A stretch of 64,000 nt of DNA, from the NCBI RefSeq assembly GCF_000177195.2, contig NC_015953.1:3410001-3474000 (forward strand). Direction: 5' to 3'. Below, one piece after another: positions 39,889 through 46,533 of this stretch; position 1 is the first letter of the stretch, and every line of letters starts with the position of its first letter. Source of the DNA: Streptomyces sp. SirexAA-E. GTDB taxonomy: Bacteria; Actinomycetota; Actinomycetes; Streptomycetales; Streptomycetaceae. Below the pieces are notes generated by a model, which had not been told where the DNA came from, made no database searches, and saw nothing but the letters and a program-made list of their open reading frames with translations. Both the position numbers and the translations under genes were made by a program.

Positions 39889-42489
<2,601 letters not shown>

Positions 42490-42632: not shown

Positions 42633-43034
42633 ATGCCTGACGTACGCAACCCCGGCCCGGACTACCTCGCCTTCTGGCGGGAGCGCCATGTCTGCACACT
42701 GACCACGCTCCGCCCGGACGGGACGCCGCACGTGGTGCCCGTCGGCGTGACGTACGACCCGGACACCCTGACCGCACGGGTCATCACGAGCGGGAGGAGC
42801 CGGAAGGTCGCCCACGTCCTGGCGGCCGGCCCGGAGGGGGCACGGGTCGCGGTCTGCCAGATGCAGGGGCGCCGCTGGGCGACGCTGGAAGGGCGCGCGG
42901 TGATCCGTACGGAGTCCGGCCAGGTCGAGGACGCGGTACGCCGCTACACGGAGCGGTACGAGCGCACGCCGGCGCACAACCCCGAGCGGGTGGTCATCGA
43001 GATCGCCGTGGACCGGGCGCTCGGCAGGGGCTGA
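42633..43034 (+). CDS. PPOX-class (F420-dependent oxidoreductase type) protein
   Basis: 133 residues of the pyridoxamine-phosphate-oxidase-like split barrel: YLAFWRERHVCTLTTLRPDGTPHVVPVGVTYDP, RVITSGRSRKVAHVLAAGP, RRWATLEGRAVIR. This small form resembles mycobacterial Rv1155-like F420-binding reductases. A TAGGCT -10-like box at 42620-42625 lies 7 nt before the ATG, so it is probably a leaderless transcript. It is divergent from clpB, and the HAIR element lies between the two. Cofactor (FMN or F420) is not decided by sequence. Confidence 0.82.
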   Translation: MPDVRNPGPDYLAFWRERHVCTLTTLRPDGTPHVVPVGVTYDPDTLTARVITSGRSRKVAHVLAAGPEGARVAVCQMQGRRWATLEGRAVIRTESGQVEDAVRRYTERYERTPAHNPERVVIEIAVDRALGRG

Positions 43035-43134: not shown

Positions 43135-43455
43135 TCAGGCGCTGCGGGGGGTGGCGGAAATGGCTTCTTGTTCGAACAGCTCGTGATCGCGCTGGTCGAG
43201 ATTGACGAAGATCATGCCGTACCTCACGGCACAGCGGACCGGCTGCGGAGCACCTCGGGGACGGCGGAGACAGCGGTAGGCGCGAATGTCGTCCTCCGCC
43301 TCCATCACGACGACGACCGGCTCTCCGAACAGGGTGACCATCAACGAATCGCCCTGGCGGGTCAGCGCCGTGAGCAGATCGATGAAATGCCACCCTGAGC
43401 GGTAGGCCGTGGCCATCTCCCGTCGAAAGGTGCGGTCGTCCGGTGGGGTGGTCAT
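43135..43455 (-). CDS. Small hypothetical protein coupled to the DITWG-repeat gene
   Basis: 106 residues, not recognised with confidence. ATG 43455 overlaps the stop of the DITWG-repeat gene in an ATGA arrangement, so the two are co-translated. The middle (VTLFGEPVVVVMEAEDDIRAY, then CLRRPRGAP...CAVRYGMIFVNLD) faintly recalls a Rieske domain, where LxGxPVVVxR strands precede CxHRGA...CxxH. Here both ligand His positions are Arg (CLR, CAVR), so no [2Fe-2S] cluster would be expected. It may be a degenerate or repurposed fold, or the likeness may be chance. No signal peptide. Confidence 0.55.
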   Translation of the reverse strand: MTTPPDDRTFRREMATAYRSGWHFIDLLTALTRQGDSLMVTLFGEPVVVVMEAEDDIRAYRCLRRPRGAPQPVRCAVRYGMIFVNLDQRDHELFEQEAISATPRSA

Positions 43456-43757
43456 GCGCCCGCGCCGGCCGGAGCCGTGCCCCACGTGATGTCACCGGAG
43501 GTCGCGCCCCACGTGATGTCGCGCGGAGCCGCACCCCACGTGATGTCACCGGAGGTCGCGCCCCAGGTGATGTCGCGCGGAGCCGCGCCCCAGGTGATGT
43601 CGCCCTGAGCCGCGCCCCAGGTGATGTCACCGTTCACGGTCGCCGCCTGCTCGGCCGGCGCGGCCCCCCAGGTGATGTCGTGAACACCCAACGCGCCGTA
43701 GGCCAGGGCCCCCACGAAAGCAGTGGCAAGCACCGAGCGAAGCATTCGCTTAGACAT
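43452..43757 (-). CDS. Secreted-looking protein of seven DITWG repeats
   Basis: 101 residues. A signal-like N-terminus (SKRMLRSVLATAFVGALAYGALG) is followed by seven copies of DITWG. After two spaced copies, units are nine residues each: DITWGA(A/T)xx with variable ends QG, PR, SG, PR, SG. The last continues TAPAGAGA. It contains no Cys and one Trp per unit. ATG 43757 has AGTGAGGA 10 nt upstream; an ATG at 43787 is less likely (ribosome site too close). The gene is coupled to the small ORF downstream and divergent from the first LuxR-type regulator. Function unknown; a multi-copy peptide precursor or a surface/amyloid-like repeat protein are possibilities. Confidence 0.7.
   Translation of the reverse strand: MSKRMLRSVLATAFVGALAYGALGVHDITWGAAPAEQAATVNGDITWGAAQGDITWGAAPRDITWGATSGDITWGAAPRDITWGATSGDITWGTAPAGAGA
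43477..43690. repeat. 27-bp coding repeats of the DITWG gene
   Basis: Plus-strand units such as GCGCCCCA(G/C)GTGATGTC recur every 27 bp in the main array, with two outlying copies near 43650-43690. The two alternating 3' halves (ACCGGAGGTC and GCGCGGAGCC) show that a 54-bp pair was duplicated. Units keep the reading frame. This is a coding repeat, not a CRISPR: no variable spacers. Confidence 0.85.
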
Positions 43758-43847
43758 TTCGGCTTCGTCCTCACTTGATGGATTCATCTCCCCCGCACTC
43801 AAGACGATGTCTCACGCGGACACGCAAGCACCACTGGATCGATGCAT

Positions 43848-43873
43848 CATGTTCTTGCACGTTCAGGAACATG
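43848..43873. promoter_or_regulatory. Palindrome CATGTTC-N12-GAACATG upstream of first LuxR-type gene
   Basis: CATGTTC (43848-43854) and GAACATG (43867-43873) form an inverted repeat in the 128-bp divergent region between the DITWG gene and the regulator, with another GTTC half-site between. It ends 12 bp before the regulator start, so binding there could repress translation-proximal transcription. Candidate autoregulatory operator; not a known named site. Confidence 0.5.
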
Positions 43874-43885
43874 GGGGGTGGAGAT

Positions 43886-44866
43886 ATGGATACAAGCGGT
43901 TCAAAAGCGTCACATCCGCACGGGATCACGCAACTATGCGATGCGGGACAGCGCCTCTACGCGAGCGCGCTGCGGTCCGGCCGCATACCGCGTGCGGAGG
44001 TGGAACCGGCTCCGTGCCTGATGGACTTCGCCCTGCTCCACCCCGACCCGGACGACGCCGACTGGCTACGCCCCGTGCCGCCCTCGGCGGCCCTCGCCCA
44101 GTGGCTGCACCCCATCGAGAGGGAGATCCAGGAGCGCAGGCGCCACTCCCTGGAGCTGGCCGAGTCCTTCGAACCCTTCATGGACATCAGCGCCCAGGAC
44201 CCGCCGACGACGCACGCCATCACCGTGCTCGAAGGCAGCACCCGCATCAACGCGGCCATCGACGTGGCCACGGCGGAGTGCCGCATGGAAGTGCTCACCG
44301 TGCAGCCCGGCGGGGTCCGGAGCGAGGACATCCTCAGCAAGGGGCTGGAACGGGGCAGGGCCGTGGTGGACCGGGGCGTCGGTATCCGCACCCTCTACCA
44401 GCACACGGTCCGCCACCATCAGGGGACGTTCGTGTACGCGGAGCGGCTCGCCGAGGGCGTGGAGATCCGCACGCTCGAAGAGCTCGTGGAACGCATGCTC
44501 ATCTTCGACCGCACGGTCGCCTTCATTCCCGCTCAGGACGACCTGACGGTCGCGCTGGAACTGAGGCACCCGGGTCTCGTCTCCTATTTGATAAACGTCT
44601 TCGAGCAGCTCTGGCAACGCGCCACTCCCCTGCTGGAGGATATTCCGTACACCCCGACGACGGCCGGTATCAGCGGCGTCCAGCGCTCCATCGCCCAACT
44701 CCTCGTCGAGGGCCATGTCGACGACTCCATAGCGCGCAGGCTCGGCATGAACGTCCGCACCTGCCGGGCGCATATCGCGAAGCTGAACGCCGCACTCGGC
44801 AGCAGCAGCCGGGCCCAGCTCGGATACCTCATTTCACGGTCAGGAATCCTGGACCAGGATTCCTGA
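43886..44866 (+). CDS. LuxR-type transcriptional regulator, first of two paralogues
   Basis: 326 residues. The C-terminal HTH (VQRSIAQLLVEGHVDDSIARRLGMNVRTCRAHIAKLNAAL, about 270-310) is LuxR-like. There is no receiver domain. The long N-terminal part has an LMDFALLHPDPDDADWLRPVPPSAAL segment, then a TrmB/PLD-like sensory region (AECRMEVLTVQPGG, RAVVDRGVGIRTLYQHTV, VEIRTLEELVERMLIFDRTVAFIP). ATG 43886 follows GGTGGAG. It is a paralogue of the next gene (same block order, LIFDRTxAFIPA shared). Its divergent neighbour is the DITWG peptide gene, the best candidate target or ligand source. Confidence 0.8.
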   Translation: MDTSGSKASHPHGITQLCDAGQRLYASALRSGRIPRAEVEPAPCLMDFALLHPDPDDADWLRPVPPSAALAQWLHPIEREIQERRRHSLELAESFEPFMDISAQDPPTTHAITVLEGSTRINAAIDVATAECRMEVLTVQPGGVRSEDILSKGLERGRAVVDRGVGIRTLYQHTVRHHQGTFVYAERLAEGVEIRTLEELVERMLIFDRTVAFIPAQDDLTVALELRHPGLVSYLINVFEQLWQRATPLLEDIPYTPTTAGISGVQRSIAQLLVEGHVDDSIARRLGMNVRTCRAHIAKLNAALGSSSRAQLGYLISRSGILDQDS

Positions 44867-44873
44867 CCGTGAA
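44833..44873. terminator. 41-bp palindrome overlapping the stop of the first LuxR-type gene
   Basis: A 20-bp perfect inverted repeat (TTCACGGTCAGGAATCCTGG and its complement) around a single A. The last 11 codons of the gene and the TGA (44864-44866) lie inside it. Likely terminator; the coding sequence has been shaped to include it. Confidence 0.8.
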
Positions 44874-45001
44874 TACCCCCGTGTCCTGCCAGGTGCCGCC
44901 GCCCGAAACCGGGAGCGGCAGCCCGGTCGTGGACGTACGGGGGTGCCCCGCGCGACCACGACACACCCACACTCCACCCGGCTACTAGGCTTGCGCCACC
45001 G

Positions 45002-45013
45002 GCAACTTGTTGC
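45002..45013. promoter_or_regulatory. GCAACTTGTTGC palindrome upstream of second LuxR-type gene
   Basis: Perfect 12-bp palindrome 26 bp before the start codon of the second regulator. It differs from the CATGTTC palindrome of the first gene, so the two regulators probably answer to different sites. Candidate only. Confidence 0.4.
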
Positions 45014-45038
45014 AGCGTACAAAGCGGGGGGCTCCCAG

Positions 45039-46046
45039 ATGGGGACAGAACCAGCACAACCGCCGCACCGCCACGGACCGAGGGAGCTGTGCGCTCCCGG
45101 ACTCGAGCTGTACGAACGGGCGTTGCGCCAGGGGAAGATCGCCCGTGGCGACCTCGTCACGGCACCGTGCCTCATCGACATGGCGCTGGTGCAGGCCGAT
45201 CCCTGGGACGAGGACCGGATGCTCCCCGTCCCGCCGTCCGCGGCCCTGGCCCGTCTGCTGCAGCCGCTCACCCGCGAGATAGACGAGCGCATCGAGCTGA
45301 CGCTCACGCTGGCCCGGTCACTGGCGCCGATGGCCGGCATAGCCGACGGCGACCCCCATCTGGCCATCACCATGCTGGAAGGGCCGGAGGCGATACGCGA
45401 GGCCATCCGGGAGGCCACCGCCCAGGCCACGACGGAGGTCCTCACGGCGCAGCCGGGGAGCGACCGCCCCCACGCCACCCTGCGCACCGCCCTGGACAAC
45501 GCCCGGATCGCCATCGCGCAGGGCGCCAGGCTCCGACACATCTATCAGCACCCGGCGCGCTACAGCACCCAGGTCAGGGACTACCTGCACCTTGTCCCCG
45601 CGGAGTCCCTCCAGGTGCGGACCACCGAACTCACGGTGGAACGGCTGCTCATCTTCGACCGCACGGCTGCGTTCATCCCCGCCACCACCGACCGCAGTTC
45701 GGCGCTCCACATCCGCCACCCGGCGCTCGTGGCCTACCTCGCCCAGGTCTACGAGGTCCTCTGGGCCCAGGCCACCCCGTACACCGATCAGCTCCCCATC
45801 ACCCCCGGCGCCCCGGTCACCGCCGTCCAGCAGAGCGTCGCCCGGCTCCTGGCGGAGGGCCACGTCGACGACGTGGTGGCCCGCAAGCTGGGCATCAGCG
45901 TCCGCACCTGCCGCTCGCACATCTCCAAGCTCATGCAGACGCTCGGCGCCCACAGCCGCACCCACCTGGGCGTGCTCCTCGTGCGGTCGGGCATCGCGGA
46001 CACGGAGGCCGGGCCGCCCACGCCAAGGCCCGCCCCAGAAGCGTGA
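45039..46046 (+). CDS. LuxR-type transcriptional regulator, second paralogue
   Basis: 335 residues, same architecture as the preceding gene: LIDMALVQADPWDEDRMLPVPPSAALARLL, TTEVLTAQPGSDRP, RIAIAQGARLRHIYQHPARY, ERLLIFDRTAAFIPAT, and a LuxR-like HTH VQQSVARLLAEGHVDDVVARKLGISVRTCRSHISKLMQTLG (about 265-305). No receiver. ATG 45039 follows GCGGGGGG. It lies 172 bp after the first regulator with a terminator palindrome between, so it is separately transcribed. The tail is Pro-rich (GPPTPRPAPEA). It converges on hspR with 40 bp between stops. Confidence 0.8.
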   Translation: MGTEPAQPPHRHGPRELCAPGLELYERALRQGKIARGDLVTAPCLIDMALVQADPWDEDRMLPVPPSAALARLLQPLTREIDERIELTLTLARSLAPMAGIADGDPHLAITMLEGPEAIREAIREATAQATTEVLTAQPGSDRPHATLRTALDNARIAIAQGARLRHIYQHPARYSTQVRDYLHLVPAESLQVRTTELTVERLLIFDRTAAFIPATTDRSSALHIRHPALVAYLAQVYEVLWAQATPYTDQLPITPGAPVTAVQQSVARLLAEGHVDDVVARKLGISVRTCRSHISKLMQTLGAHSRTHLGVLLVRSGIADTEAGPPTPRPAPEA

Positions 46047-46086: not shown

Positions 46087-46533
46087 TCAGTCCTTCGGCC
46101 TCTTGGGCCGCCAGACCACCAGCGCGCCGGTCTGCTGCACGTCCTGGTACGGCACCAGGTCGCGGCGGTAGGAGGCGTGCACCTGGGCCTCACGCTGCTG
46201 CATGGCCACGGCCGCGCCGTCCACCGCCGCGGAGAGCTCGGCGACGCGCTGCTGGAGCGCGGCGACCTGGTTCTCCAGCTCGATGATGCGCTTGATGCCC
46301 GCCAGGTTGATGCCCTCGTCCTGCGACAACTGCTGGACGGTGCGCAGCAGTTCGATGTCACGGGCCGAGTAGCGCCGACCGCGCCCGGCCGTGCGGTCGG
46401 GCGAGACCAGGCCGAGGCGGTCGTACTGGCGCAGCGTCTGCGGGTGCAGGCCCGAGAGCTGGGCCGCGATCGAGATCACGTACACCGGTGATTCGTCGGT
46501 CAGCTGGTACGGATTACGTCGACGGCCGTCCAT
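46087..46533 (-). CDS. hspR: Heat-shock repressor HspR (MerR family)
   Basis: 148 residues: MerR-type winged HTH (VISIAAQLSGLHPQTLRQYDRLGLVSPDRTAGRGRRYSARDIELL, about 19-65), a coiled coil (KRIIELENQVAALQQRVAELSAAV) and the hydrophobic C-terminal GALVVWRPKR tail characteristic of HspR. It binds HAIR sites and uses DnaK as co-repressor. It is the last gene of the dnaK operon, 1 bp after dnaJ, and controls both that operon and clpB in this window. Confidence 0.97.
   Translation of the reverse strand: MDGRRRNPYQLTDESPVYVISIAAQLSGLHPQTLRQYDRLGLVSPDRTAGRGRRYSARDIELLRTVQQLSQDEGINLAGIKRIIELENQVAALQQRVAELSAAVDGAAVAMQQREAQVHASYRRDLVPYQDVQQTGALVVWRPKRPKD

Follow-up and report, generated by a model that had tools for sequence, protein, structure and literature searches.

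A candidate DxxW pentapeptide signal and its predicted LuxR-type receptor in Streptomyces, with putative relatives in other actinobacteria, plasmids, and phages

The window, which is the whole analysed stretch of 64,000 nucleotides, contains a minus-strand peptide precursor gene (43452..43757, including the stop). Its translation has 101 aa with seven DITWG copies, and homologues occur in 203/203 loci. Residues 1-26 of the precursor, MSKRMLRSVLATAFVGALAYGALGVH (43680..43757, minus strand), have a basic start and a hydrophobic core on direct reading, and are signal-like by composition only. The DITWG copies (43479..43679, minus strand) lie at residues 27, 44, 53, 62, 71, 80, and 89, the last six with a 9-residue spacing, and ACC/ACG third-base variation is present between them. 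The translation and the composition of the N-terminus agree with the signal-bearing, 101-residue repeat protein of the preliminary description. The nonapeptide named there as the repeat unit is replaced here by DxxW(x) as the conserved unit.

The gene downstream of the precursor gene (43135..43455, minus strand) encodes 106 aa from its ATG and is a weak Rieske-domain relative by profile and fold searches. It matches the NCBIfam model GbcA with E=6e-5, far under the cut-off of the model, and dioxygenases are its best PDB matches (E=7e-4). Its predicted structure, made from a four-row alignment, is only fair (pLDDT 76.6), and the best Foldseek match has E=0.014, with none below 0.001. An Arg occupies what we take to be the place of a ligand His. 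The stop of the peptide gene shares 4 bases with the ATG of the downstream gene, which read TCAT on the plus strand. The overlapping small ORF, previously left unrecognised, is thus this downstream gene, and its translational coupling to the peptide gene is probable from the overlap. The two genes adjoin in all 203 loci, which is true by definition of the set, and the downstream gene was matched in 149 of the 197 genomes of the order, within one of six genera.

The flanks comprise a gene with ClpB domains (39889-42489), a pyridoxamine-oxidase-like gene (42633-43034), and a MerR-family gene (46087-46533), which we take to be hspR. Among the genes of the window that separate clpB from the MerR gene, none was seen to encode a protease or permease. 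The locus had been regarded as inserted among heat-shock genes; it is instead syntenic across the 203 loci examined. The short core with its Trp and the weak Rieske-oxygenase relative would suit a ribosomally made peptide, antimicrobial or modified, that is sensed by its own regulator. This is very improbable, as the clpB-MerR interval of the window has no evident gene for modification, export, or immunity, and the Rieske relative carries the Arg at the presumed ligand position. The relative is also unmatched in the other five genera of the order, whereas words of this kind occur in another family.

Divergent from the precursor gene, as already described, is a gene for a LuxR-type regulator, LuxR1 (43886..44866, plus strand, 326 aa), for which the ATG at 43886 is the better start. 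LuxR1 is the proposed receptor and regulator. Its predicted model is alpha/beta (pLDDT 86.8), with a PLD/TrmB-like sensor at about residues 106-250 and a C-terminal LuxR-type DNA-binding domain at about 257-325. Residues 109-249 of the model align with NucT 6ehi, a PLD fold (Z=16.9, rmsd 2.2, 134 aligned), and the sugar-binding domain of TrmB, 2f5t, gives Z=14.6, rmsd 2.7, and 130 aligned. Foldseek finds TrmBL2 5bpd (E=1e-13) and TrmB 3qph (E=1.8e-7); the TrmBL2 alignments begin at LuxR1 residue 12-13, but with a large rmsd (15.7-23.3). The C-terminal part, about 257-325, resembles LuxR-type DNA-binding domains, with Z=11.7-12.1 for VqmA chains. The TrmB/PLD-like sensory half suspected earlier is accordingly matched by the predicted model. 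The paralogue LuxR2, on the plus strand, is likewise better read as 45039..46046. The Pfam GerE match is over the cut-off for LuxR2 (E=2.9e-8) and under it for LuxR1 (E=0.0026).

A near-palindromic putative operator, ATGTTCTTGCACGTTCAGGAAC (43849..43870), is located between the divergent genes and forms a conserved block in the alignment of 203 intergenic regions. With up to three mismatches, its pattern has a single site in the 7.41-Mb genome, matched there on both strands. The reversed pattern, used as a control, has 0 sites in the same genome, and no further sites of that one pattern were found at this threshold.

All 203 examined Streptomyces loci in which both LuxR1 and the downstream gene occur also have the peptide gene, and the pair of peptide gene and LuxR1 is syntenic. 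Eighty of the loci come from named genomes, picked for their resemblance to a single LuxR1, and several of these duplicate unnamed loci, so the number of independent species is below 203. Repeats carry no weight in the branch-based tests. L153, L154, and L155 were dropped, as LuxR1 and the downstream gene were not both found. L152, with a cut LuxR1, is off the 202-row tree, and one further row is off the 201-row control. The peptide ORF is still picked in 203/203 loci when no credit is given for words.

All 203 precursors contain at least one word [D/E/N]xxWx, in 1-12 copies. By composition, they also have basic and hydrophobic N-termini, in which an obvious cleavage site is often absent. The words number 520, compared to 59.8 from shuffled residues, and the same parts contain 526 Trp in total. 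Within the 146 multi-copy genes, the identity of the word over 746 copy pairs is 0.996, 0.996, 0.983, and 1.0 at P1-P4, and one tetrad is used throughout in 137 of these genes; across genes there are 40 main tetrads. The residues flanking the words agree at 13-46% (per-gene means). Synonymous and non-synonymous differences between copies are 60/3 at P1, 236/3 at P2, and 334/13 at P3. The word is therefore uniform inside genes despite synonymous changes, while its flanks vary and the word itself differs between species. This pattern supports the word as the selected unit. The alternative given in the preliminary description, a repeat protein that is secreted or surface-bound and whose gene the adjacent LuxR pair only regulates, is in line with the repeats and the signal-like N-terminus. 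It is hardly probable, given that 57 of the 203 genes are single-copy and 93 precursors end in the word, unlike a structural repeat, and that the word matches a LuxR1 sensor residue and neither the LuxR2-type paralogues nor the downstream gene. A search of the main loci for a second gene ending in DxxW gave 31 frames in 29 loci with a loose pattern, none plausible by eye.

Position P2 of the word pairs with LuxR1 residue 136 as S-M in 104/104, T-V in 46/46, P-L in 17/17, and I-V/I in 22/22 cases, with a further 10 L-V/I/A and 3 V-V pairs. Of 22 changes at residue 136, 18 share their branch with a P2 change, against an expectation of 1.9 (p=3.5e-16), and the other 4 have no P2 change. The branches of S/T switches at P2 are the branches of M/V switches at 136 in all 16 cases. 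Eight of 26 P2 changes occur without a change at 136. Two of these are S>L and S>V, and the other six exchange one of L/I/V/T for another, all of which V at 136 tolerates. Most peptide-co-varying residues on the LuxR1 tree lie at residues 135-156 (44288..44353, plus strand), which consist of a strand (135-140), a loop, and the start of a helix. Coupling to P3 (residues 143, 145, and 153) and to P5 is weaker than that of 136 to P2, and the columns involved differ on the other tree.

The best p was 8.7e-5 when 92 LuxR1 columns served as pseudo-peptide, and 6e-5 for 500 random branch sets. The downstream gene has no match, with a best p of 0.036 over three word positions (34-39 columns, two trees), and residue 136 retains p=3.5e-12 on the tree of that gene. 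In LuxR2-type paralogues, P2=S is found with V 117, L 47, A 4, M 3, and others at the aligned position; LuxR2 is not the matched receptor by this P2 table. That the association merely follows from linkage or common descent is extremely improbable. In favour of this reading, neighbouring genes may be transferred jointly, the sample contains related loci more than once, and some further LuxR1 columns score on the tree of the downstream gene (167, p=7e-5). One column nevertheless stands well above the others with 18 co-changes, the nulls reach 6e-5 at best, the downstream gene is negative, and S-M recurs in a different family. Recognition of the word by LuxR1 is strongly supported by these sequence data, which put residue 136 at the side chain of P2 or close to it. 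The joint change of word and sensor residue suggests a peptide signal and receptor pair. The earlier proposal that nearby regulators are receptors is thus supported for LuxR1 but not for LuxR2. A multi-copy precursor sensed by an adjacent regulator gains support from the uniform word, the P2-136 co-switching, and S-M in a second family.

In that other actinobacterial family, S is paired with M in 10/10 cases and T with M in 0/17. The receptor column pairing with P2 has the highest mutual information among 336 columns, while by parsimony just 3 of 5 P2 changes share a branch with a change of the receptor residue. In this family, 10 of 27 precursors have a small-x-A site immediately ahead of the word. 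Simple scans gave no peptide in 3/30 of its loci and in 20/30 Streptomyces paralogue loci. Outside the LuxR1 set and the other family, S-M is found in 3/4, T-V in 5/7, P-L in 2/2, and L-V/I in 2/2 cases; these counts leave out the other-family loci L302-L305, which have T with A, L, L, and L. The rule is looser outside LuxR1, where T occurs with V, I, L, or A, and one S with L. Loose peptide matches rejected by eye include L259, L263, L268, L343, and L348. LuxR1 relatives with the same arrangement are also located on plasmids (9 of 117 matching plasmid records examined). Judged by words and gene arrangement, the DxxW kind is not confined to Streptomyces.

The most probable reading, held with good confidence, is that [D/E/N]-x-x-W-x (here DITWG) is an exported, cut, and re-imported pentapeptide pheromone, sensed by the operator-binding LuxR1 as a non-RRNPP receptor. 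The precursor would be exported via its signal sequence and then cut. The pentapeptide would re-enter the same or neighbouring cells, probably through an oligopeptide permease, and may bind LuxR1 at its PLD/TrmB-like sensor half. Acting at the putative operator between the divergent genes, LuxR1 would control both the peptide operon and its own expression. Export, cutting, import, the sign of regulation, and the physiological output are inferred. The precursor or its word may instead act on LuxR1 inside the producer, as ligand, antagonist, or membrane tether, before or without export and with no cell-cell signal. Co-variation indicates recognition rather than its place, and LuxR1, having a DNA-binding domain, works in the cytoplasm. 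In the same genome, a 49-aa candidate next to a LuxR paralogue (read from a chosen ATG) ends in DTGWG and has no evident signal sequence. Such an intracellular role is unlikely in view of the basic and hydrophobic N-termini of the 203 precursors, the small-x-A sites of the other family, and the multi-copy words, which fit cleavage into free peptide.

To our knowledge, peptide signalling via cytoplasmic receptors is known essentially from the RRNPP systems of Firmicutes. RRNPP/RRNPPA systems such as Rap-Phr and Rgg have tetratricopeptide receptors, and Phr peptides are C-terminal pentapeptides. The exported pheromone proposed here resembles them in its small, exported-looking precursor (by composition) adjoining a cytoplasmic receptor in 203/203 loci, and in a short, species-specific word that is often C-terminal. 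It differs in its phylum, in the Trp at word position 4, and in its predicted receptor, in which a PLD/TrmB-like sensor is joined to a LuxR-type DNA-binding domain; the LuxR1 model is positively of this other fold and not tetratricopeptide. The LuxR-type DNA-binding domain is shared with LuxI/LuxR AHL quorum sensing, but LuxR1 has a sensor half of the PLD/TrmB fold, and the proposed ligand is a gene-encoded peptide. No autoinducer-binding domain was listed for LuxR1 or LuxR2 in a Pfam scan with E up to 1. The sensor fold is nearest to archaeal TrmB/TrmBL2. TrmB senses sugars and has an N-terminal DNA-binding domain; LuxR1 has a LuxR-type domain at its C-terminus.

According to passages of PMC9640686, the S. 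coelicolor BldK oligopeptide permease imports an unidentified 655-Da signal. This is similar in that a Streptomyces takes up a small peptide signal via an oligopeptide permease, and dissimilar in that these passages name no gene for the signal. DTHWP, one of 94 words (2/203 loci), has a monoisotopic mass of 654.28. It was rejected as the 655-Da signal, as nothing ties DTHWP to S. coelicolor. In a search of 150 genomes, those nearest to S. coelicolor by small-laccase identity were G136 (98%) and G118 (97%). With the G136 LuxR1 as query against named genomes, S. coelicolor was absent from the best 80 of 498 relatives, and its word was thus not recovered. No description of a DxxW system was found in CC-licensed PubMed Central, a collection without bioRxiv and most subscription journals.

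Taken together, the data suggest a peptide signal and receptor not described before, with apparent relatives in other actinobacteria, plasmids, and phages. It is somewhat favoured that Actinobacteria have their own, independently evolved intracellular pheromone system. This would comprise exported DxxWx peptides, LuxR-type PLD/TrmB readers, and a P2-136 code, and would be common in Streptomyces and present in one or more genera of another family, in paralogues, on plasmids, and in integrase-near actinophage copies, maybe as an arbitrium-like lysogeny signal. If true, Streptomyces and its relatives have a receptor family unrelated to RRNPP with a readable specificity code. It would represent a cell-cell language of the main antibiotic-producing bacteria, testable with five-residue synthetic peptides, and would supply candidate signals for the extracellular peptides long suspected in Streptomyces development.

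Arbitrium is the AimR-AimP system of Bacillus phages. A receptor likewise accompanies an exported-looking peptide in phage Chymera and in three viral contigs, one of which has an identical receptor, and in Chymera an integrase is close to the pair. In contrast, the host group is that of actinophages and the receptor is a LuxR1 relative, not AimR-type; a role in lysogeny may be proposed from the gene position near the integrase. If the actinobacterial system is real, it would suggest that actinophages gained peptide communication separately from Bacillus phages. The viral fragment L352, from the alignment A1 scan (38% over residues 142-194), was set aside as being without a plausible peptide. 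No PHROGs family matched the phage proteins gp29 or gp30. Phage gp29 is the LuxR1 relative, with 30.7% identity over 59% and a GerE match under the cut-off. The actinophage peptide has two DPGWG words, one right after a small-x-A site and the other C-terminal.

Translation of the precursor gene in the window (43757-43452, minus strand) gives a 101-residue protein whose N-terminus is basic and hydrophobic and which carries the word DITWG seven times; a word is here the repeated DxxW(x) pentapeptide, with positions P1 to P5. The precursor's stop codon overlaps the start codon of a small downstream gene (43455-43135, minus, by translation). Divergent from the precursor gene is LuxR1 (43886-44866, plus), the proposed receptor, which is followed by its paralogue LuxR2 (45039-46046, plus). 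A ClpB-domain gene and a pyridoxamine-oxidase-like gene are the upstream neighbours. The MerR-family gene beyond LuxR2 is presumably hspR, in line with the preliminary description, which had remarked on heat-shock genes. LuxR1 as modelled by AlphaFold (85-row alignment, mean pLDDT 86.8, pTM 0.56) is predicted to resemble TrmBL2/TrmB and phospholipase-D-fold chains at residues ~106-250, and LuxR-type DNA-binding domains at residues ~257-325. Translation, gene layout and model agree, so the preliminary description of a signal-bearing repeat protein divergent from a regulator with a TrmB/PLD-like sensor half stands.

LuxR1 matches at E<=1e-20, paralogues included, occur in 145 of the 150 Streptomyces genomes sampled, and downstream-gene matches, a few of them weak, in 125/150. 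The locus set comprises these 125 regions, 80 named loci (the best 80 of 498 relatives of the LuxR1 of a near relative of S. coelicolor) and the window, 206 in total. LuxR1 and the downstream gene occur together in 203, always oriented apart, and between them lies a small gene whose product has the same type of N-terminus and one or more [D/E/N]xxW words (203/203). The same precursor ORF is chosen in all 203 when words get no credit. These precursor parts contain 526 Trp and 520 words, against 59.8 words with shuffled residues. ClpB is upstream in 196/203 loci; the MerR gene is visible in only 59/203 because many fetched stretches stop short of it. The additional LuxR genes vary in number and strand and are absent from the stretch in 33 loci; LuxR1 is thus the constant partner of the precursor. 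The downstream gene is weakly related to Rieske-domain proteins and has matches in 1/6 genera of the order. Rieske ligands are C-x-H ... C-x-x-H; the gene (43135-43455, minus) has C-L-R ... C-A-x-R, invariant in four aligned sequences.

The precursors carry 1-12 words, a single copy in 57 genes and multiple copies in 146; the highest number is the twelve EPSWG words of locus L151. Forty tetrads serve as main word across genes, such as DITW, DSTW, DSKW, DLVW, EPSW, DPGW and DTHW, and 137 of the 146 multi-copy genes have one tetrad in every copy. Within-gene copy identity at P1-P5 is 0.996, 0.996, 0.983, 1.0 and 0.67 (per-gene values 0.997, 0.989, 0.954, 1.0 and 0.81), and per-gene mean flank identity is 0.13-0.21 before and 0.14-0.46 after the word. 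Codon differences between copies are synonymous versus non-synonymous in 236 versus 3 pairs at P2, 334 versus 13 at P3 and 211 versus 245 at P5. Since differences at P2 and P3 are far oftener synonymous, recent homogenisation of the DNA does not by itself explain the uniform word, and by these sequence comparisons the word is a unit under selection. The word forms the precursor C-terminus in 93/203 Streptomyces loci. In another actinobacterial family it directly follows a small-x-A site in 10/27 precursors; when the pattern is relaxed to small-x-A/G within three residues, 24/27 fit, although Ala-rich sequence may often match by chance. Together, precursor and word ends suggest that the mature product would be a pentapeptide DxxWx. 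The DTHWP word (L134, L139) has a monoisotopic mass of 654.28, near the 655-Da BldK-imported signal, a likeness of mass alone.

With changes placed by parsimony on a 202-locus LuxR1 tree, 18 of the 22 changes at sensor residue 136 fall on P2-change branches (1.9 expected, p=3.5e-16). S at P2 occurs with M at 136 in 104/104 loci, T with V in 46/46 and P with L in 17/17; the remainder are I with V (20) or I (2), L with V (8), I (1) or A (1), and V with V (3). All 16 S/T switch branches are also M/V switch branches. Eight of 26 P2 changes leave 136 unchanged: six are exchanges within the group L, I, V and T, whose words have V at 136 in common, and the others are S>L and S>V. The couplings of P3 (to residues 145, 153 and 143) and of P5 (to 149 and 118) are weaker. 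All of these residues lie within one sensor stretch, 118-157, but none is a top column on a second tree, that of the downstream gene. On that tree residue 136 retains 33/47 co-changes against 10.5 expected (p=3.5e-12; next column 7e-5). The downstream gene compared with the word has no similar signal, with a best p of 0.036 over three positions and two trees (39 and 34 columns). As nulls, 92 LuxR1 columns used in turn as pseudo-peptide reach no better than 8.7e-5, and 500 random branch sets no better than 6e-5. The earlier proposal that the nearby LuxR regulators would be receptors is supported for LuxR1 but not for the LuxR2-type paralogues, which show no match at the same loci (with P2=S the aligned residue is V in 117, L in 47, A in 4, M in 3, and others).

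Class-wide, LuxR1 relatives at E<=1e-15 occur in 80/296 genomes and 22/114 genera, Streptomyces included, and in 112/118 genomes of one genus of the other family. Thirty loci of that family, the best matches to the query, include 27 with a small signal-bearing precursor; the words are DTSWG, DSSWG, DTTWG, DSTWG, DSGWG, DTSWP and DTTWP. There, P2=S has M at the 136-equivalent in 10/10 and P2=T never does (L13, I3, T1; for the S-M pairing Fisher p=1.2e-7, relatedness ignored). By mutual information this column is the top one of 336, and by parsimony on a small tree 3/5 P2 changes share a branch with a receptor-residue change. A CGG tail follows the word in 10/27 precursors, as in DSSWGCGGYCR (L314, L318-L320, L323, L326, L327, L330, L333, L335).

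A simple scan finds DxxW candidates in 10/30 Streptomyces paralogue loci, for example four DNGWS in L260, DPGWD in L275 and DSSWGG in L272 and L276. In L260 and L270, the LuxR paralogue next to the DNGWS words has A at the 136-equivalent, a pairing absent from the LuxR1 set. In the window's own genome (C1:2443852-2444868; L158/L247) a LuxR paralogue is divergent from an ORF ending in DTGWG, 49 aa from a chosen ATG, with no evident signal sequence. Nine plasmid loci hold five candidate precursors: S. globosus (three DTGWG), Kitasatospora (DTSWGG), S. clavuligerus pCLA1 (two DLPW), a further locus with DTSWGG and another with DSAWG downstream of its LuxR, where the pairing is doubtful. Among paralogue, plasmid and phage loci, some closely related, S pairs with M in 3/4, P with L in 2/2, L with V/I in 2/2, N with A twice, and T with V in 5/7, the other two having I, one with a mixed R/T word pair. 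As T pairs with L, I, A or T in the other family, the T rule does not hold generally.

The support for LuxR1 recognising the DxxWx word is close to the most that sequence data by themselves can give. Putative export, re-import and cell-cell signalling would most economically link an exported-looking multi-copy precursor to a DNA-binding receptor. The system would work similarly to RRNPP and arbitrium (AimR-AimP) signalling, but is a member of neither because its receptor has another fold. A literature search covering part of the literature found no published description of it.

Conservation is strong across the divergent intergenic regions of the 203 loci, ATGTTCCTGCAnGTTCAGGA included; the window copy of this block is near-palindromic and the sole such place in the genome at <=3 mismatches of the pattern used. 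It is natural to infer that LuxR1 would autoregulate through this putative operator. Judged by size and gene order, SCO3664-SCO3666 of S. coelicolor is presumably the same locus. PMC3282765 places SCO3665 (327 aa) and SCO3666 (394 aa) in the LuxR family. Section 7 of PMC6585502 reports that insertions in SCO3664, called a regulator, raise actinorhodin >50-fold; complementation is given there for 12/16 regulator mutants, SCO3664 not necessarily among them.

A phage version occurs in Streptomyces phage Chymera (KU958700.1, 1855-3130; L339), where gp29 is related to LuxR1 (30.7% identity over 59%). Divergent gp30 has 59 residues, with DPGWG directly after AQA and again at the C-terminus. Two genes past gp30 comes the integrase, gp32 (Pfam Phage_integrase, E=7.5e-24); the small protein gp28 is of the HTH_31/HTH_3 type. 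Control of lysogeny by the pair is a guess from gene position, and the pair is possibly an independent actinophage counterpart of arbitrium. The same pair is found on three IMG/VR contigs (L349-L351; receptor 100, 88 and 68% identical), with both words kept and the linker altered. The phage receptor has L at the sensor residue, like other P2=P words.
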